Source: Agrobacterium tumefaciens (GTDB lineage: Bacteria > Pseudomonadota > Alphaproteobacteria > Rhizobiales > Rhizobiaceae). Taken from it: 64,000 nucleotides of DNA. Numbering within the stretch: position 1 is the stretch's first letter; every line of letters starts with the position of its first letter. This document shows, piece by piece, positions 846 through 21,435 of this stretch. The DNA lies in contig NZ_CP115841.1 of the NCBI RefSeq assembly GCF_013318015.2, positions 1,984,001 through 2,048,000 on the forward strand. Reading direction: 5' to 3'. A program made the position numbers and the translations under genes. The notes under the pieces were generated by a model. It saw nothing but the letters and a program-made list of their open reading frames with translations, was not told the origin of the DNA and did no database searches.

Positions 846-2555
846 TCAGAACAGGAAATAACGCTGCGCCATCGGCAGCACCGTCGCCGGTTCACAGGTC
901 AGAAGCTCGCCATCGGCGCGCACCTCATACGTTTCCGGGTCAACCTCGATATGCGGGGTCAGCGAATTGTGGATCATCGAGGCCTTGGAAATACCGCCGC
1001 GCACGTTCTTCACCGCCATCAGCTTCTTGGCAACACCAAGACGCCCTGCAAGGCCGGCATCCAGCGACGCCTGACTGACAAATGTAACCGAGGAATTGGT
1101 GCGCAGCTTGCCATAGGCGGCAAACATCGGGCGGTAATGCATCGGCTGCGGCGTGGGAATGGAGGCATTCGGATCGCCCATGGGTGCCGCGGCGATGGAA
1201 CCGCCAAGCAACACCATCTCAGGCTTCACGCCGAAGAATGCCGGGTTCCACAACACCAGATCGGCACGCTTGCCGACTTCGATGGAGCCGATCTCATGGC
1301 TGACGCCCTGCGCGATGGCCGGGTTGATGGTATACTTGGCGATGTAACGGCGGACGCGGAAATTGTCGTTTTCGCCGGTCTCTTCCTTCAGACGGCCGCG
1401 CTGGCGCTTCATCTTGTCAGCCGTCTGCCAGGTGCGAATCGCCACTTCGCCGACACGGCCCATGGCCTGGCTGTCGGAGGAAATGATCGAGAACGCGCCG
1501 ATATCGTGGAGAATATCCTCCGCCGCGATGGTTTCCTTGCGGATGCGGCTTTCGGCGAACGCGATATCCTCAGGGATGGACGACGACAGGTGGTGGCACA
1601 CCATCAGCATATCCAGATGTTCGGCCAGCGTATTGATGGTGTAGGGCCGCGTCGGGTTGGTGGAAGACGGGATGACGTTCGGATTGCCGCAGACCTTGAT
1701 GATATCAGGCGCATGGCCGCCGCCTGCCCCTTCGGTGTGGAAGGCATGGATGGTGCGGCCCTTGATGGCGGCAACCGTGTCTTCCACGAAACCGCTCTCA
1801 TTCAGCGTATCGGTGTGGATCATCACCTGCACGTCATATTCGTCAGCCACCGTCAGGCAATTGTCAATGGCGGCGGGCGTCGTGCCCCAGTCCTCGTGCA
1901 ACTTCAGCGATGAGGCACCGGCAAGGATCATCTCTTCCAGCGGCGCGGGCAACGAAGCATTGCCCTTGCCCGCCAATGCGAGGTTCATCGGGAAAGCGTC
2001 GAAGCTCTCGATCATCCGCTCGATGTGCCACGCGCCGGTGCAGGTGGTGGCAAGCGTGCCATGCGCGGGGCCGGAACCGCCGCCCAGCATGCAGGTAACG
2101 CCGCTCATCAGCGCTTCCTCGATCTGCTGCGGGCAGATGAAATGGATATGTGCATCCATGCCACCGGCAGTCAGAATCTTGCCTTCGCCGGCAATCGCCT
2201 CTGTCGAAGGGCCGACAATGATTGTCACGCCCGGCTGCGTATCGGGATTGCCCGCCTTACCGATGGCGTGGATGCGCCCGTTCTTCAGGCCCACATCCGC
2301 TTTGTAGATGCCGCTATGGTCGACGATGACGACGTTGGTGATGACGGTATCGACAGCGCCCTCGGCCCGCGTCGCCTGGCTCTGGCCCATGCCGTCGCGA
2401 ATGACCTTGCCACCGCCGAATTTCACTTCCTCGCCATAGGTCGTGTAGTCCTTCTCGATCTCGATGAAGAGTTCGGTATCGGCAAGACGCACCTTGTCGC
2501 CGACGGTCGGGCCGAACATGCCGGCATAGGCGGCGCGGGAAATCTTGTAAGGCAT
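846..2555 (-). CDS. ureC: Urease alpha (catalytic) subunit
   Basis: Hydrolyses urea to ammonia and carbamate in the cytoplasm, as part of the nickel enzyme made with UreA and UreB. The 569-residue length is normal. The metal-binding HIH motif lies near residue 136 (GGMDAHIHF). The lysine that becomes carbamylated and bridges the nickels lies near residue 218 ([10 protein letters not shown]). The catalytic histidine region reads [19 protein letters not shown] and the SSDSQAMGR loop is intact, so the enzyme should be active once UreD and the accessory proteins load nickel. AAGGAG lies nine bases before the ATG. Three small genes separate it from ureA, a typical rhizobial arrangement. Confidence 0.98.
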
Positions 2556-7260: not shown

Positions 7261-7956
7261 TTATACTGTCAGATGGCGACGCGCCTCGGGCTTATCCAGC
7301 GTTTCGGCAAGCCCCTCATGCACAATTTCGCCGCGGTCCATGATGTAGACATAGTCGGCAAGCTCACGGCAGAAATCCAGATATTGCTCGACCAGCAGGA
7401 TCGCCATACCGGTTGAATCCCTGAGATATTTGATTGCGCGGCCGATATCCTTGATGATCGACGGCTGAATGCCTTCGGTCGGCTCGTCGAGAACGAGGAT
7501 TTTCGGCCGCGTCACCAGCGCCCGGCCGATGGCGAGCTGCTGCTGCTGGCCACCGGACAGGTCGCCGCCGCGTCTGCCCAGCATGGATTGCAGCACCGGA
7601 AACAGGCTGAAAATATCGTCGGGAATGAAACGCTCCTTGCGCGGCAGCGGCGCATAACCGCTTTCAAGGTTTTCCTGCACGCTGAGCAGCGGAAAGATTT
7701 CACGCCCCTGTGGCACGTAGCCGACACCGCGCTTGGCCCGGTGGTAAGGCGCCAGCCCATCCAGTGCCGCTCCTTCAAAGCTGATCGACCCGCCACTGAT
7801 GGCATGCTGGCCGGTGACCGCGCGCAACAACGAGCTTTTGCCTACGCCGTTTCGGCCGAGAACACAGGTGATCTTGCCCATCTCCGCTTTCAGAGACACG
7901 CCCCGCAGGGCTTGGGCTGCGCCATAGTGGAGGTTGATGTTTTCGACGTTCAGCAT
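7261..7956 (-). CDS. urtE: Urea ABC transporter ATP-binding protein UrtE
   Basis: One of two ATPases of the high-affinity urea importer, 231 residues, cytoplasmic face. It has Walker A GRNGVGKSS, signature LSGGQQQQLAIGRAL, Walker B ILVLDEPTEGIQPS and the H-loop-equivalent LLVEQYLD. The GIQPS sequence after Walker B and the LNVENINLHYG start are typical of UrtE within the LivF-like group. It is the last gene of the urt cluster and is separated from urtD by about 200 bases holding a palindromic mosaic repeat. Confidence 0.96.
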   Translation of the reverse strand: MLNVENINLHYGAAQALRGVSLKAEMGKITCVLGRNGVGKSSLLRAVTGQHAISGGSISFEGAALDGLAPYHRAKRGVGYVPQGREIFPLLSVQENLESGYAPLPRKERFIPDDIFSLFPVLQSMLGRRGGDLSGGQQQQLAIGRALVTRPKILVLDEPTEGIQPSIIKDIGRAIKYLRDSTGMAILLVEQYLDFCRELADYVYIMDRGEIVHEGLAETLDKPEARRHLTV

Positions 7957-8164: not shown

Positions 8165-8926
8165 TCACCGCCCCAGATAATTCTCGATCACCTTCGGATC
8201 GCTGGACACAAAATCGATCGACCCTTCCGCCAGCACCGAGCCCTCGGCAAGACACGTCACCTTCACGCCCAGCTCGCGGATGAAGCCCATGTCGTGCTCC
8301 ACCACCACGACCGAGCGGGTCTTGGCGATTTCCTTCAGAAGCACGGCGGTTTCGGCTGTCTCCGCATCCGTCATGCCGGCCACCGGCTCGTCCACCAGCA
8401 GCAGCTTCGGTTCCTGTGCCAAGAGCATGCCAATCTCCAGCCACTGTTTCTGGCCGTGCGAGAGGTTGGCCGCGAGATCGCCGCGGCGGTGGCTGAGACG
8501 CACGGTGGCGAGGATTTCCTCGATACGCGCCTTGTCCTCCGCTGTCAGCCTGTAGAACAGCGTGGCGAAGACGCCGCGTTTGCGGTTCAACGCCAGTTCC
8601 AGATTGTCCCAGACGGTATGGCTTTCAAACACCGTTGGCTTCTGGAATTTACGCCCGATGCCCAGCTGGGCAATGTCCGCCTCGTCCTTTTTCGTGAGGT
8701 CGATGCTGTCTTCGAACAGCACCGTGCCGGTATCCGGCCGGGTCTTGCCGGTGATGATATCCATCATCGTCGTCTTGCCGGCGCCATTCGGACCGATGAT
8801 GGCCCGCAGCTCGCCCGGCTCCACCACGAAGGACAGGGAATTGAGCGCCCTGAACCCGTCGAAGGAAACGGAAACACCGTCGAGATAAAGCAGGCTTTTG
8901 GTTCTGTTTTCGGAAACCGTGTTCAT
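8165..8926 (-). CDS. urtD: Urea ABC transporter ATP-binding protein UrtD
   Basis: The LivG-like ATPase of the urea importer, 253 residues. Walker A is GPNGAGKTT, followed by the signature LSHGQKQWLEIGM, Walker B LLLVDEPVAGMTDAE and the VVVVEHDMGFIR switch region. The variant signature LSHGQ is typical of UrtD. The start MNTVSENR at 8926 lies seven bases after the urtC stop; a longer in-frame start would overlap urtC by 80 bases. The C-terminus PKVIENYLGR is the usual family ending. Confidence 0.96.
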   Translation of the reverse strand: MNTVSENRTKSLLYLDGVSVSFDGFRALNSLSFVVEPGELRAIIGPNGAGKTTMMDIITGKTRPDTGTVLFEDSIDLTKKDEADIAQLGIGRKFQKPTVFESHTVWDNLELALNRKRGVFATLFYRLTAEDKARIEEILATVRLSHRRGDLAANLSHGQKQWLEIGMLLAQEPKLLLVDEPVAGMTDAETAETAVLLKEIAKTRSVVVVEHDMGFIRELGVKVTCLAEGSVLAEGSIDFVSSDPKVIENYLGR

Positions 8927-8933
8927 ATCAGCC

Positions 8934-10112
8934 TCACTCCGCCGCCTGTTGCGCCGCTGTTGCAGCACTGTCATTGCCCGGTTGTCCGGCCGCACTTGCC
9001 GCCCGCGCAACACGCTTTTCGCGCAGCCCGACCAGATAATGCTGCACGGTGCCGACGATGCCCTTGGGGAAGAACAGCGTCACCGCGATGAACAGCCCAC
9101 CCAGTGCAAACAGCCAGAATTCGGGGAAAGCGCCGGTGAAATAGCTCTTGCCGCCATTGACCAGCAGCGCGCCGATGATCGGCCCGATCAGCGTGCCGCG
9201 CCCGCCGACTGCGGTCCAAACCACCACCTCGATGGAGTTGGCGGGGGAGAATTCGCCGGGATTGATGATGCCCACCTGCGGCACGAACAGCGCACCGGCA
9301 ATGCCCGCCATCATGGCCGAGACGACGAAGGTAAAGAGCTTGATGTTTTCCACCCGGAAACCGAGGAAGCGCACCCGGCGTTCGGCATCGCGCACGCCCA
9401 CCAGCACCTTGCCGAATTTGGAATTGACGATGCCGGATGCAATCAGCAGCGAAAGCGCCAGCATCACGGCCGTCATCGCAAACAGCACGGCACGGGTGCC
9501 ATCCGCCTGCACGGAAAAGCCGAGAATATCCTTGAAATCGGTGAGACCATTGTTGCCGCCAAAACCCATGTCATTGCGGAAGAAGGCAAGCAGCAGGGCG
9601 TAGGTCATGGCCTGCGTGATGATGGAGAGGTAAACGCCGTTGACGCGCGAGCGGAAGGCGAACCAGCCGAACACGAAGGCGAGCAGGCCGGGCACCACCA
9701 GCACCATCAGTGCTGCAAACCAGAACATGTCGAAGCCATGCCAGAACCACGGCAGTTCCTTCCAGTTGAGGAACACCATGAAGTCAGGCAGCACGGGATG
9801 GCCGTAAACACCGCGCGTGCCGATCTGCCGCATCAGATACATGCCCATGGCATAACCGCCGAGCGCGAAGAAGGCGGCGTGGCCGAGCGAGAGAATGCCG
9901 CAATATCCCCAAACCAGATCAAGCGCCAGCGCCAGCAGCGCATAGGCCAGATATTTGCCGAGCATCGACATGATGTAGGTCGGGATGCGGAACGCGCTGT
10001 CAGCCGGCAACAGCAGATTGGAGGCGGGCACCAGCACGGCGATGGCCAGGATGATGCCGATGGCGATGGAAATGCGCCGATCGAGCGCGCGCAGGAGGAA
10101 GCCGGTAATCAT
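8934..10112 (-). CDS. urtC: Urea ABC transporter permease UrtC
   Basis: A LivM-type inner-membrane permease of 392 residues with about ten hydrophobic segments. Conserved stretches include DLVWGYCGILSLGHAAFFALGG and VVWTAVGGRGTLIGPIIGA. It pairs with UrtB to form the urea channel. Its ATG overlaps the urtB stop by four bases, indicating translational coupling. A tail after about residue 365 (AARAASAAGQPG...) is low complexity. Confidence 0.96.
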   Translation of the reverse strand: MITGFLLRALDRRISIAIGIILAIAVLVPASNLLLPADSAFRIPTYIMSMLGKYLAYALLALALDLVWGYCGILSLGHAAFFALGGYAMGMYLMRQIGTRGVYGHPVLPDFMVFLNWKELPWFWHGFDMFWFAALMVLVVPGLLAFVFGWFAFRSRVNGVYLSIITQAMTYALLLAFFRNDMGFGGNNGLTDFKDILGFSVQADGTRAVLFAMTAVMLALSLLIASGIVNSKFGKVLVGVRDAERRVRFLGFRVENIKLFTFVVSAMMAGIAGALFVPQVGIINPGEFSPANSIEVVVWTAVGGRGTLIGPIIGALLVNGGKSYFTGAFPEFWLFALGGLFIAVTLFFPKGIVGTVQHYLVGLREKRVARAASAAGQPGNDSAATAAQQAAE

Positions 10113-11722
10113 GCTTCGATCGCCCTTCCCTTGAGTGCGAAGAGACCACGCGGCCGCTTCTGGATGAACAGGATGATGAGAACGAGCACGAGGATCTTGC
10201 CGAGCACGGCGCCCACCGTCGGCTCAAGGAACTTGTTGAGCACGCCGAGCGACAGCGCACCCACGAGCGTTCCCCAGAGATTGCCGACCCCGCCGAACAC
10301 CACCACCATGAAACTGTCGATGATGTAGCTCTGGCCGAGATTGGGCGAGACATTGTCGATCTGCGACAGCGCTACCCCGGCAAGGCCGGCAACGCCGGAA
10401 CCGAGCGCGAAGGTGAAGGCATCCACCCAGGGCGTGCGGATGCCCATGGAAGAGGCCATGCGGCGGTTCTGGGTCACAGCGCGCATCTGCAAGCCGAAGG
10501 CGGAGCGCTTCAAAAGCACCAGCAGCGCGAAGAAGACGGAAAGCGAGAAGCAGACGATCCACACGCGGTTCCAGGTGAAGTTGAGGTAACCAACGCTGAA
10601 CGAGCCGGACATCCAGCTCGGGCTGCCGACCTCACGGTTGGTCGGGCCGAAGATGGAACGCACGCCCTGTTGCAGGATCAGCGAGATACCCCAGGTGGCG
10701 AGCAGCGTTTCCAGCGGTCGCCCGTAGAGATAGCGGATGACGCCGCGCTCCATGATGAGGCCGACGCAGGCTGTGACCAGAAAGGCGGCCGGCAGGGCAA
10801 TCGCCAGTGACCAGTCGAACAGGCCGGGGAAATGGCTGCGGATCAACTCCTGCACCATGAAGGTGGAATAGGCGCCGATCATCACCATCTCGCCATGCGC
10901 CATATTGATGATGCCCATGACGCCGAAGGTGATGGCAAGACCGATGGCGGCCAGCAGCAGCACCGAGCCGAGCGACAGGCCGTACCAGACATTCTGTGCG
11001 TAATCCCAGAAGGCAAGGGAACTCTCGATGCTGGAAATCGCCTCGTCCACATCCGGCTTCAGGCTCGGATCAACCGTGGGCGTCGCCGCCATCAGAATGC
11101 TGATCGCATCGCGCCCGCCAAGCGCCTTGATGGTGGCGATCGCTTCTTTCTTCACCTCAAGGGGGCGGTCGGAGGAAAGCAGCGAGACAGCCCGCGCCTC
11201 CTCCATCCGCGTCCGCACCTCTTTGTCGGTTTCCTTGGATATGGCCGCTTCCAGCAATTCCAGATTTTCGGCACTGGGGGCTTTCAGAACCGCATCGGCG
11301 GCGGAAAGCCGTACCGAGCGTTCCGGACTGAGCAACGTCAGGCCGCCCATCGCGGCGCGGATGACGCGACGCAGATTGTTGTTGACCCTGATCTTGGTAA
11401 CCGCCGCCTTCGGCGCTTCGCCAGCACTTTCGCCGGTCAGCGGATCGATGAGTGTGAAATTGGAACCCGACGGCTTGGTCATGAACACCAGATTGTCGGC
11501 CTTGCGCACGTAAAGATCGCCTGATGCAAAAGCCTCAAGCGCCAGCACCACCCGCGCGTCGCCGGTGGCAGCAATCTGGCCGATCAATGTTTCGGCCTGC
11601 TTGAAGTCAGCCGTGCCGAGCTGGTCGATCAGCGCCTTCGGATCGCTCTGCGCGAGGGACTGGGCGGCGATCCCCAGGGTGAGCCAGAGGAAGATGGCTC
11701 CGAGAAAAGATCGGATCGTCAT
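10109..11722 (-). CDS. urtB: Urea ABC transporter permease UrtB
   Basis: A LivH-type permease of 537 residues, longer than LivH because of a periplasmic region of about 230 residues after the signal peptide (ending near AQSLAQS). That region has HEAT-like helical repeats, a known feature of UrtB. The permease part has ITFGVMGIINMAHGEMVMIG and VFGGVGNLWGTLVGA. It follows urtA after a 273-base gap holding a terminator-like hairpin and a mosaic repeat, so part of its transcription may come from read-through. Confidence 0.96.
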   Translation of the reverse strand: MTIRSFLGAIFLWLTLGIAAQSLAQSDPKALIDQLGTADFKQAETLIGQIAATGDARVVLALEAFASGDLYVRKADNLVFMTKPSGSNFTLIDPLTGESAGEAPKAAVTKIRVNNNLRRVIRAAMGGLTLLSPERSVRLSAADAVLKAPSAENLELLEAAISKETDKEVRTRMEEARAVSLLSSDRPLEVKKEAIATIKALGGRDAISILMAATPTVDPSLKPDVDEAISSIESSLAFWDYAQNVWYGLSLGSVLLLAAIGLAITFGVMGIINMAHGEMVMIGAYSTFMVQELIRSHFPGLFDWSLAIALPAAFLVTACVGLIMERGVIRYLYGRPLETLLATWGISLILQQGVRSIFGPTNREVGSPSWMSGSFSVGYLNFTWNRVWIVCFSLSVFFALLVLLKRSAFGLQMRAVTQNRRMASSMGIRTPWVDAFTFALGSGVAGLAGVALSQIDNVSPNLGQSYIIDSFMVVVFGGVGNLWGTLVGALSLGVLNKFLEPTVGAVLGKILVLVLIILFIQKRPRGLFALKGRAIEA

Positions 11723-11995: not shown

Positions 11996-13285
11996 TCAGC
12001 TACCCTTGCCGCCGCACTTGCCCGTGGCGACGTTGAAGTTGCCGCAGGACATCGGCTTGCGCCAATCCGAAATCAGATCCTTCGAGTCAGGGAGATAATC
12101 CGACCATTCGTCACCCACGACCTGTGGCGTCTGCTGCACGATTTCGAACTGCCCATCGGCCTGGATTTCACCGATCAGCACCGGCTTGGTGATGTGATGG
12201 TTCGGCATGACGGTGGAGTAACCGCCAGAAAGGTTCGGCACGGAAACGCCGATGATGCTGTCAAGAACTGCGTCCGTATCGGTCGTACCTGCGGTTTCGA
12301 CGGCCTTAACCCAGGCGTTGAAACCGATATAGGCGGCTTCCATCGGGTCGTTCGTCACGCGCTTGTCGTTCTTGGTAAACGCATGCCAGGTTTTGATGAA
12401 TTCGGCGTTGACCTCGGTATCGACAGACTGGAAGTAGTTCCAGGCGGCAAGGTGGCCGACCAGCGGCGCGGTATCGAGACCGGCAAGCTCTTCTTCACCG
12501 ACCGAGAAGGCGACGACCGGAATGTCCTCGGCCTTGATACCCTGGTTCGCCAGCTCCTTGTAGAAGGGCACGTTGGCGTCACCATTGATGGTGGAGACAA
12601 CGGCGGTCTTCTTGCCGGCCGAGCCGAACTTCTTGATGTCGGACACGATCGTCTGCCAGTCGGACTGGCCGAACGGGGTGTAGTTGATCATGATGTCGTC
12701 TTCCTTGACGCCCTTCGACATCAGGTAGGCCTTCAGGATCTTGTTTGTGGTCTGCGGGTAGACATAGTCGGTACCGGCCAGAACCCAGCGCTCGACGCCT
12801 TCGGTCTTGGCGAGATAATCGACGGCCGGAATGGCCTGCTGGTTAGGCGCTGCACCCGTGTAGACGATGTTGCGGGAGGATTCTTCACCCTCATACTGCA
12901 CCGGGTAGAACAGCAGGGAATTCAGCTCTTCGAAAACCGGCAGCACGGATTTGCGCGACGAAGATGTCCAGCAACCGAAAACGGCGGCGACCTTGTCCTG
13001 CGAAATCAGCTGGCGGGCCTTTTCGGCAAACAGCGGCCAGTCGGAGGCCGGGTCGACCACGACGGCTTCGAGCTTCTTGCCGAGAACGCCGCCCTTCTTG
13101 TTCTGCTCGTCGATGAGCATCAGCATGGCGTCCTTCAGCGTCGTCTCTGAAATCGCCATGGTGCCGGAAAGAGAATGCAGCACGCCTACCTTGATCGTAT
13201 CGTCGGCGGCAAATGCGCCATGGAAGGCGGTGGTGGACATGATTGCGCCGAGCAGCGCGGCGCTAAGCGTCTTGCGGAATGTCAT
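11996..13285 (-). CDS. urtA: Urea ABC transporter substrate-binding protein UrtA
   Basis: A periplasmic urea-binding protein of 429 residues with a signal peptide ending near AFHGAFA-AD. The N-terminus DTIKVGVLHSLSGTMAISETTLKDA, the FGCWTSSSRKSVLPVFE segment and the NYFQSVD region are characteristic of UrtA. It feeds UrtBC. ATG at 13285 is preceded by AAGGAGAGGGG. It is the first gene of the urt cluster, so the promoter should lie in 13286-13628. Confidence 0.97.
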   Translation of the reverse strand: MTFRKTLSAALLGAIMSTTAFHGAFAADDTIKVGVLHSLSGTMAISETTLKDAMLMLIDEQNKKGGVLGKKLEAVVVDPASDWPLFAEKARQLISQDKVAAVFGCWTSSSRKSVLPVFEELNSLLFYPVQYEGEESSRNIVYTGAAPNQQAIPAVDYLAKTEGVERWVLAGTDYVYPQTTNKILKAYLMSKGVKEDDIMINYTPFGQSDWQTIVSDIKKFGSAGKKTAVVSTINGDANVPFYKELANQGIKAEDIPVVAFSVGEEELAGLDTAPLVGHLAAWNYFQSVDTEVNAEFIKTWHAFTKNDKRVTNDPMEAAYIGFNAWVKAVETAGTTDTDAVLDSIIGVSVPNLSGGYSTVMPNHHITKPVLIGEIQADGQFEIVQQTPQVVGDEWSDYLPDSKDLISDWRKPMSCGNFNVATGKCGGKGS

Positions 13286-13628
13286 CGGAAGAACCCCTCT
13301 CCTTGTTTAGCCCTCACGGGGCTTCAGCGGCATCGTTGACCGCTGCTGGAAGGGACTATCGATCTCGCGGGCAAGAAACCGTATACGTCAATTGACGTAG
13401 GCGGGGTGGCGAAAGCTGCAGGGGGTGTTGGGGAGAGGGAAATCCCGGCCGGGGCAACCGATGTGAAACCTGGCGTTTCAACTTGCTTCTTCTCCGGCAG
13501 GCAAGACGAGAGCAGCAGCGGGTCGAGGGTGCGAGGTCGGAGGCAGACTGAGAAGTCGTCCCTTAATCCGGCGCTTCGCGCCACCTTCTCCCCGGCAGGG
13601 GAGAAGAAACGATCAGCAACGCTTCACA
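13286..13628 (-). promoter_or_regulatory. urtA upstream region with a perfect 16-bp palindrome and leader hairpins
   Basis: This gene-free stretch holds a perfect palindrome TACGTCAATTGACGTA at 13384-13399, about 100 bases upstream of the urtA ATG, in a position for an activator or repressor site. Between it and urtA lie two small inverted repeats (CAGCGG/CCGCTG at 13325-13345 and AGCCC/GGGCT around 13309-13323) in the presumed leader. Near 13583-13606 a CTTCTCCCC/GGGGAGAAG repeat lies close to the end of the gstI-like gene. I found no convincing sigma-54 promoter on the minus strand. Confidence 0.5.
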
Positions 13629-15569: not shown

Positions 15570-16340
15570 ATGGGCATTCTCAAAAAATTCTCTCTCGAAA
15601 ATCGCATCGCCATCATCACCGGCAGCGGCCGCGGTCTCGGTTTCGAAATCGCCAGGGCCTTTGCCGAGGCTGGCGCCCATGTGTGGCTGACCGGCCGTAA
15701 CGCCGAGGCGCTGGAACAGGCAGCAGGCACACTTCGGCAAGCCGGCGGAAAAGCCGATTATGCCGCTTTCGACATTGCCGATACCGCCGCCGGAACTGCC
15801 CTCGTCCACCGCATCATGGACGAATTCGGCCATCTCGATATCCTCGTTAACAATGTTGGCGCACGCGACCGCCGCCCGCTTTCCGAATTCAGCGACGAGG
15901 ACGTGCTGGAGCTTATCCGCACCGACCTCACCTCCTCCGTCTCGCTGTCGCGAGACGCCGCGCAAGCCATGAACACCAACGGTTACGGCCGCATCATCAC
16001 CATCACCTCCATTCTCGGCCACATCGTCAGGCCGGGCGATGCGATCTATCCCGTTGCCAAGCAGGGGCTAACCGGGCTGATGCGCGCAATAGCTGTCGAA
16101 TATGGTGCGCGCGGCATCACCAGCAACGCCATTGCACCCGGCATGTTCGCCACGGAAACCAATGCGGCCCTTGCCGAAAACCCTGACATGGTCGCCTTTG
16201 CCAAGCTGCGCGTGCCGCTTGAACGCTGGGGCAGGCCGGATGAAATCGCCGGTGCAGCCCTGTTTCTGGCCAGCGACGCCTCCTCCTTCGTCAACGGCCA
16301 TGTGCTGACGGTGGATGGCGGCATGTCGGTGCGGCTGTGA
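15570..16340 (+). CDS. SDR-family oxidoreductase (gluconate 5-dehydrogenase-like)
   Basis: A 256-residue classical short-chain dehydrogenase. The cofactor motif TGSGRGLG is at residues 17-24, NNVGA near 94, and the catalytic triad is Ser147 (ITSILG), Tyr160 and Lys164 (YPVAK). The C-terminal PGMFATETNAAL...PLERWGRPDEIAGAALFLASDASSFVNG... region is typical of the FabG/gluconate 5-dehydrogenase group. R43 after the second strand suggests NADP preference. Substrate not determinable. The permease-like kinase gene begins 43 bases downstream, so co-transcription is likely. Confidence 0.85.
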   Translation: MGILKKFSLENRIAIITGSGRGLGFEIARAFAEAGAHVWLTGRNAEALEQAAGTLRQAGGKADYAAFDIADTAAGTALVHRIMDEFGHLDILVNNVGARDRRPLSEFSDEDVLELIRTDLTSSVSLSRDAAQAMNTNGYGRIITITSILGHIVRPGDAIYPVAKQGLTGLMRAIAVEYGARGITSNAIAPGMFATETNAALAENPDMVAFAKLRVPLERWGRPDEIAGAALFLASDASSFVNGHVLTVDGGMSVRL

Positions 16341-16383
16341 GAATGGCAAAACACCTTTTGCGGAAAGGGGCTGGATCCTAGGC

Positions 16384-19300
16384 ATGGCCGCACGGCAACG
16401 CATCATCCCCGTCAGGCGCGAATATAACCGCTGGGTCGCCAACCAGACGCTGGAAGATTATGCGCTGCGCTTCACCGCCAAAAGCGCCCGGCAATTTTCG
16501 TCCAACCGCATCTCCCACACCGCCATCGGCGCTATTTCCTTTCTGGCGCTGGAAGCGATCGGCGGCGCGATCACGCTGTCATACGGCACCACCAACGCCT
16601 TTTACGCCATCATCGTCGCGGCCATTGCCATGCTTGCCGTCGGCCTGCCGATCAGCCGTTACGCCATCCGTCACGGCGTCGATATCGATCTCCTGACACG
16701 CGGCGCGAGCTTCGGTTACATCGGCTCCACCATCACCTCGCTGATCTACGCCGCCTTCACCTTCATGCTCTTCGCCATCGAGGCGTCGATCATGTCCGGC
16801 GCGCTGGAGCTGGCGCTCGGCATTCCGCTGTGGATCGGCTACATCATCTCCGCCGTCATGGTCATTCCGCTCGTCACCCACGGCGTGCGCCTCATCAGCC
16901 GTTTCCAGATCATCACCCAGCCCTTCTGGATCGTGCTGAACGTATTGCCCTTCATCTTCATCGCTTTGATGGACTGGGAAAAATACGACCTGTGGCGGGC
17001 GTTTTCCGGCATTCATCACGCCTCCGGTCCGCCGGGCACCGTGGCCCATTTCAATCTGGTGGAATTCGGCGCGGCGTCTGCCGTCATCCTCGCGCTGATG
17101 TCGCAGATCGGCGAACAGGTGGATTTCCTGCGCTTCCTGCCCGCTGAGGGCCAGAGCCGCCTGCGCCATCGCATCGCGGTCTTTCTGGCCGGTGCTGGCT
17201 GGGTCGTCGTGGGCGTGCCGAAGCTGCTGGCCGGTTCCTTCCTCGTGGTCTTGACCTTCAGTTCCGGCGTCTCGGTGGACCGCGCCGCCGATCCGGCCCA
17301 GATGTACCTGACCGCCTTCGGCTACATGATCCCCAACCATACGGCGGCCATGCTGCTGATGGTCGCCTTCGTGGTGGTCTCGCAGCTGAAGATCAACGTC
17401 ATGAACGCCTATGCGGGCTCGCTCGCCTGGTCCAACTTCTTTTCCCGCCTCACCCACAGCCATCCCGGCCGCGTGGTCTGGCTGGTCTTCAACGTGGTGA
17501 TCGCGCTGCTGTTGATGGAACTCGGCATCTATCGCCTGCTGGAAGAAACGCTCGGCATTTTTTCCATCGTCGCCATGGCCTGGCTCTGCACCATCTCGGC
17601 CGACCTGTTCATCAACAAGCCGCTCGGCCTTGCCCCACCGGGCATCGAGTTCAAGCGCGCCCATCTCTACGATATCAATCCCGTCGGCGTCGGCTCCATG
17701 GCGCTTTCGGCCACCATTGCGCTGATGGCGCATTTCGGCACCTTCGGCGCACTCGCTGCCTCGCTTGCGCCCTATCTCACCCTCATCGTCGCCTTCATCG
17801 CCTCGCCGCTGATCGCCTGGGGCACGAAGGGCAAATTCTATCTGGCCCGCAAGCCGCGCCAGAAATGGCGCGAGCTGAGCGCCATCACCTGCTCCATCTG
17901 CGAACACCCGTTCGAGCCGGAAGACATGGCATGGTGTCCGGCCTATGCGGCGCCGATCTGTTCGCTCTGCTGCTCGCTGGACAGCCGCTGCCATGACATG
18001 TGCAAGCCGAAGGCCAAGCTCAACTATCAGGTAGCGACGGTCGCAAAATCTTTCCTGCCCCACCAACTGGTGGCAAAACTCGCCACACGGCTCGGACGTT
18101 ATGGCATGGCGGCGGCCATCGCCGTCACCGCCATTGGCGGCATATTGGCGCTCATCGCCCATCAGGTCGGCACCGCCTCGCCGGCAACGGCTGACGTGGT
18201 CAACCGCACCATCCTCATCGTGTTTTTCGTCTTTGCCGTCATTGCCGGCATCGTCTGCTGGTTTCTGGTTCTTGCCCATGACAGCCGGGTGGTCGCGGAA
18301 GAGGAATCCTCACGCCAGAACACGCTGCTGTTGAAGGAAATCGCCGCCCACAAGAAGACCGACGCCGCCCTTCAGGACGCCAAGGAAACGGCTGAGGCCG
18401 CCAACCGCGCCAAGAGCCGCTACGTGGTCGGCCTCAGCCACGAATTGCGCACGCCGCTCAACGCTGTTTTAGGCTACGCCCAGATCCTCGAACGCGATGA
18501 GTCCATTCCCGCGCCGCGGCAATCGGCAATCAAGGTCATTCGCCGTTCCGCCGACCATCTCTCCGGCCTGATCGACGGGCTTCTGGATATTTCCAAGATA
18601 GAGGCTGGCCGCCTGCAGGTCTATTCCAACGAGATCAATATTCAGGATTTCCTCGACCAGATCGTCGATATGTTCCGCCCGCAGGCGCAGGCCAAGGGTC
18701 TGGAATTCCGGCATGAACGCGCCCATTCCCTGCCGCAATATGTCCGCACGGATGAAAAGCGTCTGCGCCAGATCCTCGTCAACCTGCTCTCCAACGCCAT
18801 CAAGTTCACCGACGAGGGCAGCGTCACCTTCGATGTCGCCTATCGCAGCCAGGTGGCGAGCTTCACGGTGTCGGATACCGGGCGCGGCATTGCCGAAAAA
18901 GACCTCGCCCGCATCTACGAGCCTTTCCAGCGCGGCGAGGCCGAAAGCGTGCGCCCCATGCCGGGCCTTGGCCTCGGCCTCACCATCACGAGGCTTCTGA
19001 CCAACACGCTGGGCGGCGAGATTTCCGTCTCCAGCGAAAAGGACAACGGCTCCACCTTCCGCGTCCGTCTCATGCTGTCGGCCGTGCACCGGCCAAGTAC
19101 CGCCCCTGCGCCGGAAAAAACCATTCGCTCCTATTCCGGCCCACGCCGCACCATCGTGGTGGTTGATGATAACGAGGATCACCGCGAGCTGATGCGGCAG
19201 GTGCTTTCGCCGCTCGATTTCGTGGTGCTGACCGCCCAGAGCGGACCGGAATGCCTGACACTCATCGAAGGCGTGCAGCCCGACCTCTTTCTCATCGATA

Positions 19301-19779
19301 TCTCCATGCCCGGCATGTCCGGCTGGCAGCTTGTGACAAAGTTGCGTGAAGCAGGCCAGACGGCTCCGCTCATCATGCTCTCGGCCAATATCGGTGACGG
19401 CACCGTAGCGGGTGCCGGAGAAGACAATCACAACGACGCCATCGCCAAGCCGGTCGATATCCGCCACCTGTGCGACAGGCTTGCGGTGCATCTCGGCCTG
19501 AAATGGATTTACGATACCGACCTTCCCCCGGCACCCATCCCCCAGCCGCCGGCGCAGATCGTTCATCCCGGCGCAATTCATATCAAGGATTTGCAGAGGC
19601 TCGGCGAAATAGGCTACATACGCGGCATAGAGGCAAAACTCGCAGATCTCGCCCGCAACACCAACAACCTGCCCTTCACGCAAGAGCTTGGCACCTATGT
19701 GCAGGCCTTCGATCTGGCCGGTTACGCCCATTTTCTAAAGCGGTTTGAAGAGAGCGACAGGGGAGACGGCAAGGCATGA
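16384..19779 (+). CDS. Hybrid histidine kinase with NCS1 permease-like sensor domain and cysteine cluster
   Basis: An 1131-residue membrane protein in four parts. Residues ~35-490 form about twelve hydrophobic segments resembling NCS1 nucleobase:cation symporters (NRWVANQTLEDYALRFT, FGYIGSTITSLIYAAFTFM, VVSQLKINVMNAYAGSLAWSN). Residues ~503-540 hold eight cysteines (CSIC...WC...CSLCC...CHDMC), probably a metal site. Two more membrane helices (~565-622) and a coiled coil follow. Then come HisKA (SHELRTPLN, His686), HATPase (NLLSNAIKF, DTGRGIA, GLGLGLT) and a receiver (DISMPGMSG, Asp972), ending in a helical Hpt-like tail. It probably senses or transports a nitrogenous solute and phosphorylates the overlapping regulator. 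I start it at 16384; 16315 would lie inside the SDR gene. Confidence 0.88.
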   Translation: MAARQRIIPVRREYNRWVANQTLEDYALRFTAKSARQFSSNRISHTAIGAISFLALEAIGGAITLSYGTTNAFYAIIVAAIAMLAVGLPISRYAIRHGVDIDLLTRGASFGYIGSTITSLIYAAFTFMLFAIEASIMSGALELALGIPLWIGYIISAVMVIPLVTHGVRLISRFQIITQPFWIVLNVLPFIFIALMDWEKYDLWRAFSGIHHASGPPGTVAHFNLVEFGAASAVILALMSQIGEQVDFLRFLPAEGQSRLRHRIAVFLAGAGWVVVGVPKLLAGSFLVVLTFSSGVSVDRAADPAQMYLTAFGYMIPNHTAAMLLMVAFVVVSQLKINVMNAYAGSLAWSNFFSRLTHSHPGRVVWLVFNVVIALLLMELGIYRLLEETLGIFSIVAMAWLCTISADLFINKPLGLAPPGIEFKRAHLYDINPVGVGSMALSATIALMAHFGTFGALAASLAPYLTLIVAFIASPLIAWGTKGKFYLARKPRQKWRELSAITCSICEHPFEPEDMAWCPAYAAPICSLCCSLDSRCHDMCKPKAKLNYQVATVAKSFLPHQLVAKLATRLGRYGMAAAIAVTAIGGILALIAHQVGTASPATADVVNRTILIVFFVFAVIAGIVCWFLVLAHDSRVVAEEESSRQNTLLLKEIAAHKKTDAALQDAKETAEAANRAKSRYVVGLSHELRTPLNAVLGYAQILERDESIPAPRQSAIKVIRRSADHLSGLIDGLLDISKIEAGRLQVYSNEINIQDFLDQIVDMFRPQAQAKGLEFRHERAHSLPQYVRTDEKRLRQILVNLLSNAIKFTDEGSVTFDVAYRSQVASFTVSDTGRGIAEKDLARIYEPFQRGEAESVRPMPGLGLGLTITRLLTNTLGGEISVSSEKDNGSTFRVRLMLSAVHRPSTAPAPEKTIRSYSGPRRTIVVVDDNEDHRELMRQVLSPLDFVVLTAQSGPECLTLIEGVQPDLFLIDISMPGMSGWQLVTKLREAGQTAPLIMLSANIGDGTVAGAGEDNHNDAIAKPVDIRHLCDRLAVHLGLKWIYDTDLPPAPIPQPPAQIVHPGAIHIKDLQRLGEIGYIRGIEAKLADLARNTNNLPFTQELGTYVQAFDLAGYAHFLKRFEESDRGDGKA

Positions 19780-20705
19780 GCGGGCAAGGCGCAGCACTGC
19801 CGAGAGACATTGTATTGCTGGTGGATGACAGCCCGGAAGCGCTGGGGTTCCTCACCGATGCGCTGGAACAGTCAGGCTTTTCGGCGCTGATCGCCACATC
19901 CGGTCAGGCCGCGCTCAACATTGCCGAACGCATCACGCCCGATATCATCCTGCTCGATGCGGTCATGCCGGCCATGGACGGTTTCGAAACCTGCCGCCGC
20001 CTGAAGGCCAACGCCGCCGTGGCCCAGGTGCCTGTCATCTTCATGACCGGGCTGACGGAGACCGAACATGTGGTGCGGGCGCTCGAATCCGGCGGTGTCG
20101 ACTATCTGACCAAGCCGATCAACATCGATGAGCTGCGCGCCCGTATCCGTGTGCATCTCTCCAATGCCCGCTCGGCGCAGAGCGCCCGCGTGGCGCTTGA
20201 TGCCGCCGGACGCCACCTGCTTGCCGTGCGCGCCAACGGCGCGATCCACTGGTCCACACCACAGGCAACCCGGCTGGTCAACGCCGCCACCGGCCGTGAT
20301 GATGGGCTGGAGATTGTCGTTGCACATATTTCCGGCTGGCTGGCCGACAGGACAACGGTGGATTCCGCCCGCGATGCACCGCTGACGATCACCGAGGCCG
20401 GGCGGCCCGCTTTGCAGCTCTCCTTCCTCGGCGCAATGGGACCGGACGAATATCTCTTCCGTCTGACAGCCGCCAACGAGAAATCCGACGACCACCTGCT
20501 GAAGGACCACTTTGCCCTGACAACGCGCGAATCGGAAGTTCTGCTCTGGATTGCCAAAGGCAAATCCAACCGCGATATCGGCGATATTCTCGGCCTTTCC
20601 GCCAGAACCGTAAACAAACATCTGGAACAGATCTACGTCAAACTCGGTGTCGAAAACCGCGCCTCCGCCGCCGTCAAGGCCGCGCATATTTTGCATCAGG
20701 GGTGA
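19776..20705 (+). CDS. LuxR/FixJ-type response regulator, partner of the permease-like kinase
   Basis: A 309-residue cytoplasmic transcription regulator. The receiver (residues ~10-130) has VDDSPE, phospho-acceptor Asp61 in LLDAVMPAMDG, T/S in MTGLTE and the conserved lysine in LTKPIN. A linker of about 110 residues carries no motif I recognise. The C-terminal LuxR HTH reads LTTRESEVLLWIAKGKSNRDIG...SARTVNKHLEQIYVKLGVENR. Its ATG overlaps the kinase stop by four bases (ATGA), so the two are translationally coupled and very probably a cognate pair. Targets unknown; the adjacent SDR gene is an obvious candidate. Confidence 0.92.
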   Translation: MSGQGAALPRDIVLLVDDSPEALGFLTDALEQSGFSALIATSGQAALNIAERITPDIILLDAVMPAMDGFETCRRLKANAAVAQVPVIFMTGLTETEHVVRALESGGVDYLTKPINIDELRARIRVHLSNARSAQSARVALDAAGRHLLAVRANGAIHWSTPQATRLVNAATGRDDGLEIVVAHISGWLADRTTVDSARDAPLTITEAGRPALQLSFLGAMGPDEYLFRLTAANEKSDDHLLKDHFALTTRESEVLLWIAKGKSNRDIGDILGLSARTVNKHLEQIYVKLGVENRASAAVKAAHILHQG

Positions 20706-20898: not shown

Positions 20899-21435
20899 AT
20901 GCACCATTTCATTATTCTTTCCGGCTGCTCCGGCGGCGGTAAATCAACCCTGCTTGCCGAGCTTGCTCACCGTGGTTTCGCGACCGTCGAGGAACCGGGG
21001 CGGCGCATCGTGATTGAGGAAACGAGAAATAACGGCACCGCCCTCCCCTGGATCGACCTGGAAGCCTTTGCCCGCCGGGCGATCGCCATGGCGCTGGAGG
21101 ACCGGCAAAAGGCGCCAGCGGAAGGCTTCGTCTTCTTCGACCGCGGCCTGATCGACGCCGCCTCAGCACTTCATCATATTAGCGGCGATGGATTCATCGA
21201 AACGCTGCGGCGCACGAACCGCTACAACCCGCTGGTCTTCCTCACCCCGCCCTGGCCGGAGATCTACCGAGGCGACAGCGAGCGCAAGCACGGTTTCGAG
21301 GTGGCAGTGGAGGAATATCAACGCCTGATGCACGACTATGCCCGTCTGGATTATGAGACGATTGTGCTGCCGAAAGCACCCGTCACGGAACGTGCCGATA
21401 TTGTGCTGGAGAGGCTGGCGGCTGAAGCTGGCTGA
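20899..21435 (+). CDS. Small P-loop ATPase (AAA_28 type)
   Basis: A 178-residue protein with Walker A GCSGGGKST at residues 9-17 and a Walker B-like FVFFDRGLIDAA around residue 76. The fold and EEPGRRIVIEE and RYNPLVFLTPPWPEIY segments resemble AAA_28 or nucleoside-kinase-like ATPases. It is annotated in rhizobia simply as ATP-binding protein; substrate unknown. GGGGAGG precedes the ATG. It is separated from the response regulator by 193 bases without clear signals. Confidence 0.75.
   Translation: MHHFIILSGCSGGGKSTLLAELAHRGFATVEEPGRRIVIEETRNNGTALPWIDLEAFARRAIAMALEDRQKAPAEGFVFFDRGLIDAASALHHISGDGFIETLRRTNRYNPLVFLTPPWPEIYRGDSERKHGFEVAVEEYQRLMHDYARLDYETIVLPKAPVTERADIVLERLAAEAG

Follow-up and report, generated by a model that had tools for sequence, protein, structure and literature searches.

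Histidine kinases joined to transporter-like domains, of the SLC5/STAC and Amt types, are already known. In the SLC5/STAC kinases (CbrA, CrbS/MxtR, RpuS and EmaS), a transporter-like membrane domain is joined to the kinase, and in Ks-Amt5, an ammonium sensor kinase, an uptake-transporter module has been recruited as the histidine-kinase sensor for a nitrogen compound, with a new binding site accompanying the loss of transport (PMC5764959; all papers are cited here for their available parts). The locus described here lies in a 64,000-nucleotide stretch of Agrobacterium tumefaciens (assembly GCF_013318015.2, contig NZ_CP115841.1, positions 1,984,001 to 2,048,000 of the forward strand; hereafter the window, whose coordinates are used below), from a host genome of 6.0 Mb and six contigs. 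It encodes a hybrid sensor histidine kinase with an NCS1-like membrane domain and eight clustered cysteines, together with a LuxR-type response regulator. It is proposed, with a probability of roughly 0.65, that both form a two-component system inducing urea uptake, in which an NCS1-type receptor, the kinase and the LuxR regulator act on a palindrome upstream of urtA, leading to the activation of urtABCDE.

The longest open reading frame of the kinase spans 16315-19779 on the + strand (1154 residues). However, an identical database protein has 1131 residues and conservation among homologues begins at about 16384, so that 16384, the start chosen by the initial annotation, is the better one; residue numbers nevertheless follow the 1154-residue frame throughout. 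The closest named locus, also from Agrobacterium, is 99% identical across the kinase. Pfam recognizes only HisKA, HATPase_c and a receiver, with no PAS domain and, in the first ~690 residues, no domain above its cut-off; about 98 residues C-terminal to the receiver (19483-19776) are likewise without a Pfam match. The regulator (19776-20705, 309 residues) shares four bases (19776-19779) with the 3' end of the kinase gene. The features of the pair are as follows.

16384..19779, + strand: hybrid sensor histidine kinase with NCS1-like membrane domain, 1131 residues (open reading frame, homologue-based start, domains)
16384..17850, + strand: NCS1-like membrane domain, about residues 24-512 (AlphaFold model; Foldseek and VIA matches to CodB and Mhp1)
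17890..18003, + strand: eight-cysteine module, residues 526-563 (all eight kept in 88/88 kinases, four common to 21/21 stand-alone permeases; weak zinc-domain-like model)
18091..18297, + strand: two-peak hydrophobic stretch, residues 593-661, between cysteine module and kinase (hydropathy)
18412..18609, + strand: HisKA, residues 700-765 (Pfam 2.2e-16)
18748..19077, + strand: HATPase_c, residues 812-921 (Pfam 3.3e-25)
19153..19482, + strand: the kinase's own receiver, residues 947-1056 (Pfam 3.1e-22)
19776..20705, + strand: LuxR/NarL-type response regulator, receiver and GerE helix-turn-helix (open reading frame; Pfam 3.4e-28 and 1.1e-18)

Upstream of the kinase lie a glutamine synthetase gene (Pfam; open reading frame to 15351) and then a short-chain dehydrogenase gene (15570-16340). 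Further upstream, on the opposite strand, are urtEDCBA, all called above the curated NCBIfam cut-offs, and ureC.

13383..13400, no strand: palindrome ATACGTCAATTGACGTAG, candidate regulator-binding site upstream of urtA (sole exact match of its pattern in the 6.0-Mb genome)
11996..13285, - strand: urtA, urea ABC transporter binding protein, proposed target (TIGR03407, 560 bits, cut-off 492.75)
10109..11722, - strand: urtB permease, proposed target (TIGR03409, 432 bits)
8934..10112, - strand: urtC permease, proposed target (TIGR03408, 445 bits)
8165..9013, - strand: urtD ATPase, proposed target, longest open reading frame, matched over its residues 41-282 (TIGR03411, 386 bits)
7261..7956, - strand: urtE ATPase, proposed target (TIGR03410, 338 bits)
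846..2555, - strand: ureC, urease alpha subunit, metabolic context (TIGR01792, 981 bits)

UrtB carries an N-terminal extension of about 240 residues ahead of the matched permease part, and S. meliloti urtB is equally long. On the other side, 3' of the regulator and on the same strand, a gene at 20899-21435 encodes an AAA_28 ATPase domain.

The first line of evidence for a role in urea uptake is the neighbourhood of related kinases. A sensor-domain query matched 27 of 385 genomes at class level and 63 of 398 at phylum level. By our count, 25 of the former and 52 of the latter were strong matches (the host genome being counted in each), and the remainder were fragments or distant single permeases. 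The neighbourhood survey used the 76 strong loci outside the host genome drawn from both lists; the fragment L114 and the distant match L115 were left out, and L226 and L227 gave no tblastn match to the query. The regulator adjoins the kinase in 74 of the 76, which agrees with the pairing with a LuxR regulator read at the outset, and urt, urease or the formamidase gene fmdA occurs in the fetched stretch of 70 (42 with urt and fmdA, 13 with urt only, 8 with urt and urease, 5 with urease, 2 with fmdA). The six others comprise two short contig ends (L184, L223) and four further loci. An aliphatic amidase (at least 60% identity) is found in 20/76. Among Rhizobiaceae, urt lies within the 6-kb flanks in 80/80 loci, these being the best 80 of 531 and close relatives, not independent cases. 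The same is true of 6/6 plasmid loci picked for their annotation: in five, urtEDCBA and the kinase-regulator pair lie on opposite strands, and three of these five have a formamidase gene behind urtE; in the sixth, the kinase follows a urease cluster. Altogether, 530 plasmid records had a sensor-domain match, 342 of them from Klebsiella; on a conjugative IncF plasmid of K. variicola (L144), the kinase adjoins urtABCDE and a formamidase gene. A shorter kinase form of ~894 residues, without the receiver, is present at L218 and L219. At L218 (7379-10060 and 6114-7379), the next gene encodes a receiver, HisKA and HATPase with no LuxR domain; fmdA lies close by.

A hybrid kinase and a LuxR regulator have been drawn beside a urtABCDE copy, with fmdA at the next locus tags (PMC13296017), and fmdA-linked urt copies were proposed to carry formamide or acetamide (PMC3098086, PMC13209695); the available parts of these three papers give no account of the kinase's sensor domain, its cysteines, a DNA site or its role.

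These neighbours, together with the DNA sites described below, point to urea or short-chain amides, and not to purines, hydantoins or allantoin, as the signal. The nitrogen-scavenging role that the initial annotation expected beside glutamine synthetase and the urea and urease genes is supported, but the evidence points away from the NCS1 substrates that it had listed. Its further suggestions, that sensing might go with transport and be gated by metal or redox state, are conjectural. A ligand of that classical kind (purine, pyrimidine, hydantoin or allantoin), with urt induced within its breakdown to urea, would suit a fold that is that of cytosine and hydantoin carriers, as well as the public names of the relatives, allantoin or cytosine permease. 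Such a ligand is, however, highly improbable: in the plasmid records with annotation, the partners that recur throughout are urt, urease and formamidase (the survey was run with urt, ure, fmd, gln and amidase queries, purine genes not being sought systematically), and purine breakdown does not explain the formamidase-linked loci.

A second line of evidence came from a palindromic DNA site. One palindrome dominates the 450-bp upstreams of 37 representative kinases, its dyads occurring in up to 21 of them. They were absent from one shuffled set, in which the most frequent dyad of all came to 8. To our knowledge, the discovery set contained no Rhizobiaceae urtA upstream, and from that family it had only the window, in which the kinase upstream is without a site, and L203, with a 3-mismatch site upstream of its kinase. 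The single exact genomic match of the pattern MTACGTCANNTGACGTAK is the one listed above, 97 bp from the urtA start codon, compared with about 0.006 matches expected by chance (our arithmetic). Allowing up to 2 mismatches, 47 sites were found across 87 loci, compared with zero when each locus was shuffled once; two of these sites (L165 at +6042, L221 at +9657) are away from any obvious target start. In the Rhizobiaceae loci, the site stands 90-155 bp from the start of the urtA match in 78/80 and nowhere else, the kinase start being 0.2-3.2 kb distant. Where fmdA is separate, an extra site precedes it by ~80-130 bp (L187, L192, L193, L195, L196, L198, L199). Conversely, for urtA genes unlinked to the kinase, 20 upstreams contained no site at up to 3 mismatches. 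These genes, all above the cut-off, include seven from six genomes in which a kinase-linked copy is present as well, one from G399 (kinase ~100 kb away) and twelve from genomes without a strong match in the phylum list. The motif therefore tracks the target operons and the presence of the kinase, and its distribution suggests that the regulator of this kinase binds it. The palindrome might instead belong to another regulator of urea or amide genes, the kinase pair controlling something else, as the many urease-linked loci without palindrome and its absence upstream of the window's own kinase would allow. This is improbable in view of the 0/20 unlinked against 78/80 linked urtA upstreams and of the looser palindrome retained in Acinetobacter baumannii, where a permease replaces urt.

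Regarding the sensor, hydropathy indicates a multi-helix membrane domain at about residues 68-506 and an additional hydrophobic stretch at 593-661 with two peaks, in line with the two further helices initially described after the cysteines. The NCS1 fold is a five-plus-five inverted repeat, as in Mhp1 and CodB. In the AlphaFold model, the membrane domain has this fold and not that of SSS/SLC5 proteins, and its closest solved folds by Foldseek and VIA are CodB and Mhp1 (13-18% identity in those alignments). It is 38-43% identical to 21 stand-alone permeases, two of which pass the Pfam NCS1 cut-off (PF02133); the relatives passing it are P0170, P0185 and L224. A family profile matched E. coli CodB with an E of 2.8e-5 over 204 columns (probability 74), only the N-terminal half being aligned; against solved structures, the family profile gave no match, and a sensor-domain sequence search gave only short G-protein matches judged to be due to chance. 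In one alignment, 85 membrane-domain positions are identical across all 59 kinases and 21 permeases, and the domain is therefore under strong constraint, while 33 of the first 490 positions differ systematically between both classes. Among the latter is Glu80, present in at least 97% of 88 kinases and replaced by Phe in the permeases. Comparison of urease-linked with formamidase-linked kinases yielded weak candidates only (Ala78 to Val/Ile in three clades, Gly425 in four), which were not used as evidence; the kinase tree, with 28 of its 86 inner branches open, suggests several switches between the two contexts.

The stand-alone relatives offered a further clue. Ten of the 18 stand-alone matches at 50% identity or more (H61-H78) were examined, and seven of these loci were tied to urease, fmdA, amiE or the kinase. 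Briefly, the permease lies beside urease genes in Acinetobacter ursingii (L146, 7950-9557) and Klebsiella pneumoniae (L249, 8956-10563); beside fmdA in Moraxella (L252, 8926-10569), Tsukamurella (L305, 8953-10641) and Methylovirgula (L251); beside amiE in Arthrobacter (L250, 9013-10689) and, again, Methylovirgula; and beside the kinase in Methylovirgula and A. baumannii (L304). In Methylovirgula, it follows the kinase-regulator pair, and looser forms of the site precede both fmdA and amiE. In A. baumannii, the permease is oriented divergently from a 1157-residue kinase, which has the eight-cysteine module, and from the regulator of that kinase. Between them stands ATACGCAAAATAACGTAT, and the permease occupies the place of urt, suggesting that it can be the sensor's own target. 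This is the best evidence that the sensor domain and a urea/amide permease share a common ancestor. Publicly, the relatives are named allantoin permease, cytosine permease or hypothetical; those beside urease, formamidase or amidase genes are candidates for a new class of urea/amide transporters. We give even odds to the broader notion of an unnamed, widespread NCS1-based transceptor family for urea and short-chain amides with a two-zinc coupling module, plus sister stand-alone urea/amide permeases mislabelled as allantoin or cytosine permeases, all from a common ancestor. As separate observations, the letters found in A. baumannii also stand upstream of the kinase at L161, L163 and L164, and P0189, a 630-residue metagenomic permease relative, has a long internal repeat of part of its membrane domain, which may be an assembly error.

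Between the membrane domain and the kinase, the initial annotation had noted eight closely spaced cysteines and advised a check of their conservation. Cysteines 526, 529, 541, 549, 552, 553, 559 and 563 proved invariant in 88/88 aligned kinases (an alignment without the truncated L223 and the stand-alone L224, L225 and L146), compared with just 12/88 for cysteines 425 and 648. The CxxC...CSLC frame is also found in the C-terminal tail of the 21 stand-alone permeases, in which 526, 529, 549 and 552 are kept in 21/21 and 541 is Cys in 4/21, while 553, 559 and 563 are kinase-specific (59/59 kinases, absent from the 21 permeases). The module has no Pfam match. Modelled in isolation (predicted local distance difference test score 70, predicted template modelling score 0.49), it shows what we read as a hairpin-then-helix order like that of a treble clef, and its Foldseek list is rich in PHD, RING, LIM and FYVE domains, the best E being 0.23 and none significant. 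The pattern thus looks more like a structural two-zinc module, albeit with no significant fold match, than like a redox switch, and the module would bind two zinc ions. A search of 142 genomes of the class found it nowhere outside this kinase: six of the eight matches were the window's kinase and five homologues, and the other two (L234 and L235, both weak) were discarded, as no plausible genes of this kind lie there.

How the system might operate can be outlined as follows. An NCS1-type permease domain would have been turned into the receptor of a hybrid histidine kinase, its pocket binding urea in this host or, in many relatives, a related short-chain amide such as formamide. Class-specific positions such as Glu80 would fit receptor binding without ordinary turnover, by analogy to Ks-Amt5. 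The resulting conformational change would reach HisKA/HATPase by way of the cysteine module, in which two zinc ions are probably bound, and the two further helices, a relay like that thought to operate through STAC in CbrA (PMC13022988). The phosphoryl group would then reach the LuxR-type regulator, directly or via the kinase's own receiver, and the regulator would bind the 18-bp palindrome upstream of urtA and switch on urtABCDE. A different scheme keeps the control of the urt genes and denies the NCS1 domain its part as urea receptor: the cytosolic part would read internal nitrogen, or a metal or redox signal at the cysteine module, and the permease domain would be an anchor or a leftover transporter. 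This is unlikely, yet it draws on the report that the SLC5 domain of CbrA is non-essential for signal perception (PMC9100948) and on a conservation of the cysteines that is stricter than in most of the membrane domain. In favor of the NCS1 domain as the receptor speak the 85 invariant positions, the stand-alone permeases adjoining urea/amide genes, and Ks-Amt5, whose ligand sensor is the transporter-derived domain (PMC5764959).

Several observations weigh against the proposed urea-sensing system. PF02133 matched neither the whole kinase (E up to 1) nor the membrane domain alone (E up to 10), and across the host genome the profile gave nothing at E 0.001. The initial annotation had named the lack of an NCS1 profile match as a reason to abandon its assignment; this lack is real for the kinase itself, while fold and relatives agree with an NCS1 domain and, in our judgement, outweigh it, so that we regard the domain as NCS1-like. 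At L161, L163, L164 and L168, complete 20-kb stretches contain no urt, urease or fmdA; the stand-alone permeases of Streptomyces (L248, L306) and Arthrobacter (L307), 3 of the 10, have no urea/amide genes or kinase nearby, and the distant single permeases L224-L227 have no such neighbours either. As to the DNA site, the weaker sites in the host genome (two with 2 mismatches, the rest with 3) bring the total up to 3 mismatches to 30, compared with 40 for a reversed control, and nothing is therefore claimed for them. Outside Rhizobiaceae, many loci of the urease/UrtA type lack the strict site. A looser form (at most 1 mismatch; 1.3% in shuffles) lies upstream of 39/46 formamidase-type kinases, 3/3 kinases with urt partly seen and 4/5 unlabelled ones, but of just 9/24 urease/UrtA-type kinases, and the site rule is therefore not universal (L220-L223 were left out of this count).

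If true, the proposal would assign to a conserved kinase family, mostly recorded as "ATP-binding protein" or "hybrid sensor histidine kinase", its class of ligand, its target operon and its DNA site, and would add NCS1 to the short list of transporter folds joined to kinases. It would also predict a new urea/amide permease class, with one member beside Klebsiella urease genes, and supply a compact system for studying how a transporter fold drives a kinase.

The available parts of the open-access literature, to which the search was confined, held nothing on an NCS1-type sensor kinase, its cysteine module or NCS1 urea permeases, and no experiment on this system. The kinase predicted for EupR, and likewise EmaS, were rejected as possible instances of this system, both being described as SSS- or MxtR-like with PAS. 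Compared with the transporters themselves, the window kinase differs from CodB and Mhp1, which have no kinase part, and the CxxC tail marks its subfamily. The stand-alone "allantoin/cytosine permeases" of Acinetobacter, Klebsiella, Streptomyces and others share its sequence at the identity given above and four of the eight cysteines, and differ in having no kinase, in lacking cysteines 553, 559 and 563, and at the 33 class-specific positions. Ks-Amt5, as far as its description is available, belongs to a different family: it has an Amt fold, lacks a receiver and had no identified regulator. Finally, the SLC5/STAC systems, as described in the accessible text, resemble the present one in the hybrid receiver of CrbS and RpuS, in the LuxR-type regulators CrbR and RpuR, and in the inverted or direct repeats of their target promoters. 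However, their membrane domain is SSS/SLC5 and their linker is STAC, with PAS also present in CrbS and RpuS, whereas the window kinase has an NCS1-closest fold, no Pfam PAS domain, and the eight-cysteine module followed by two helices in the position of the linker.

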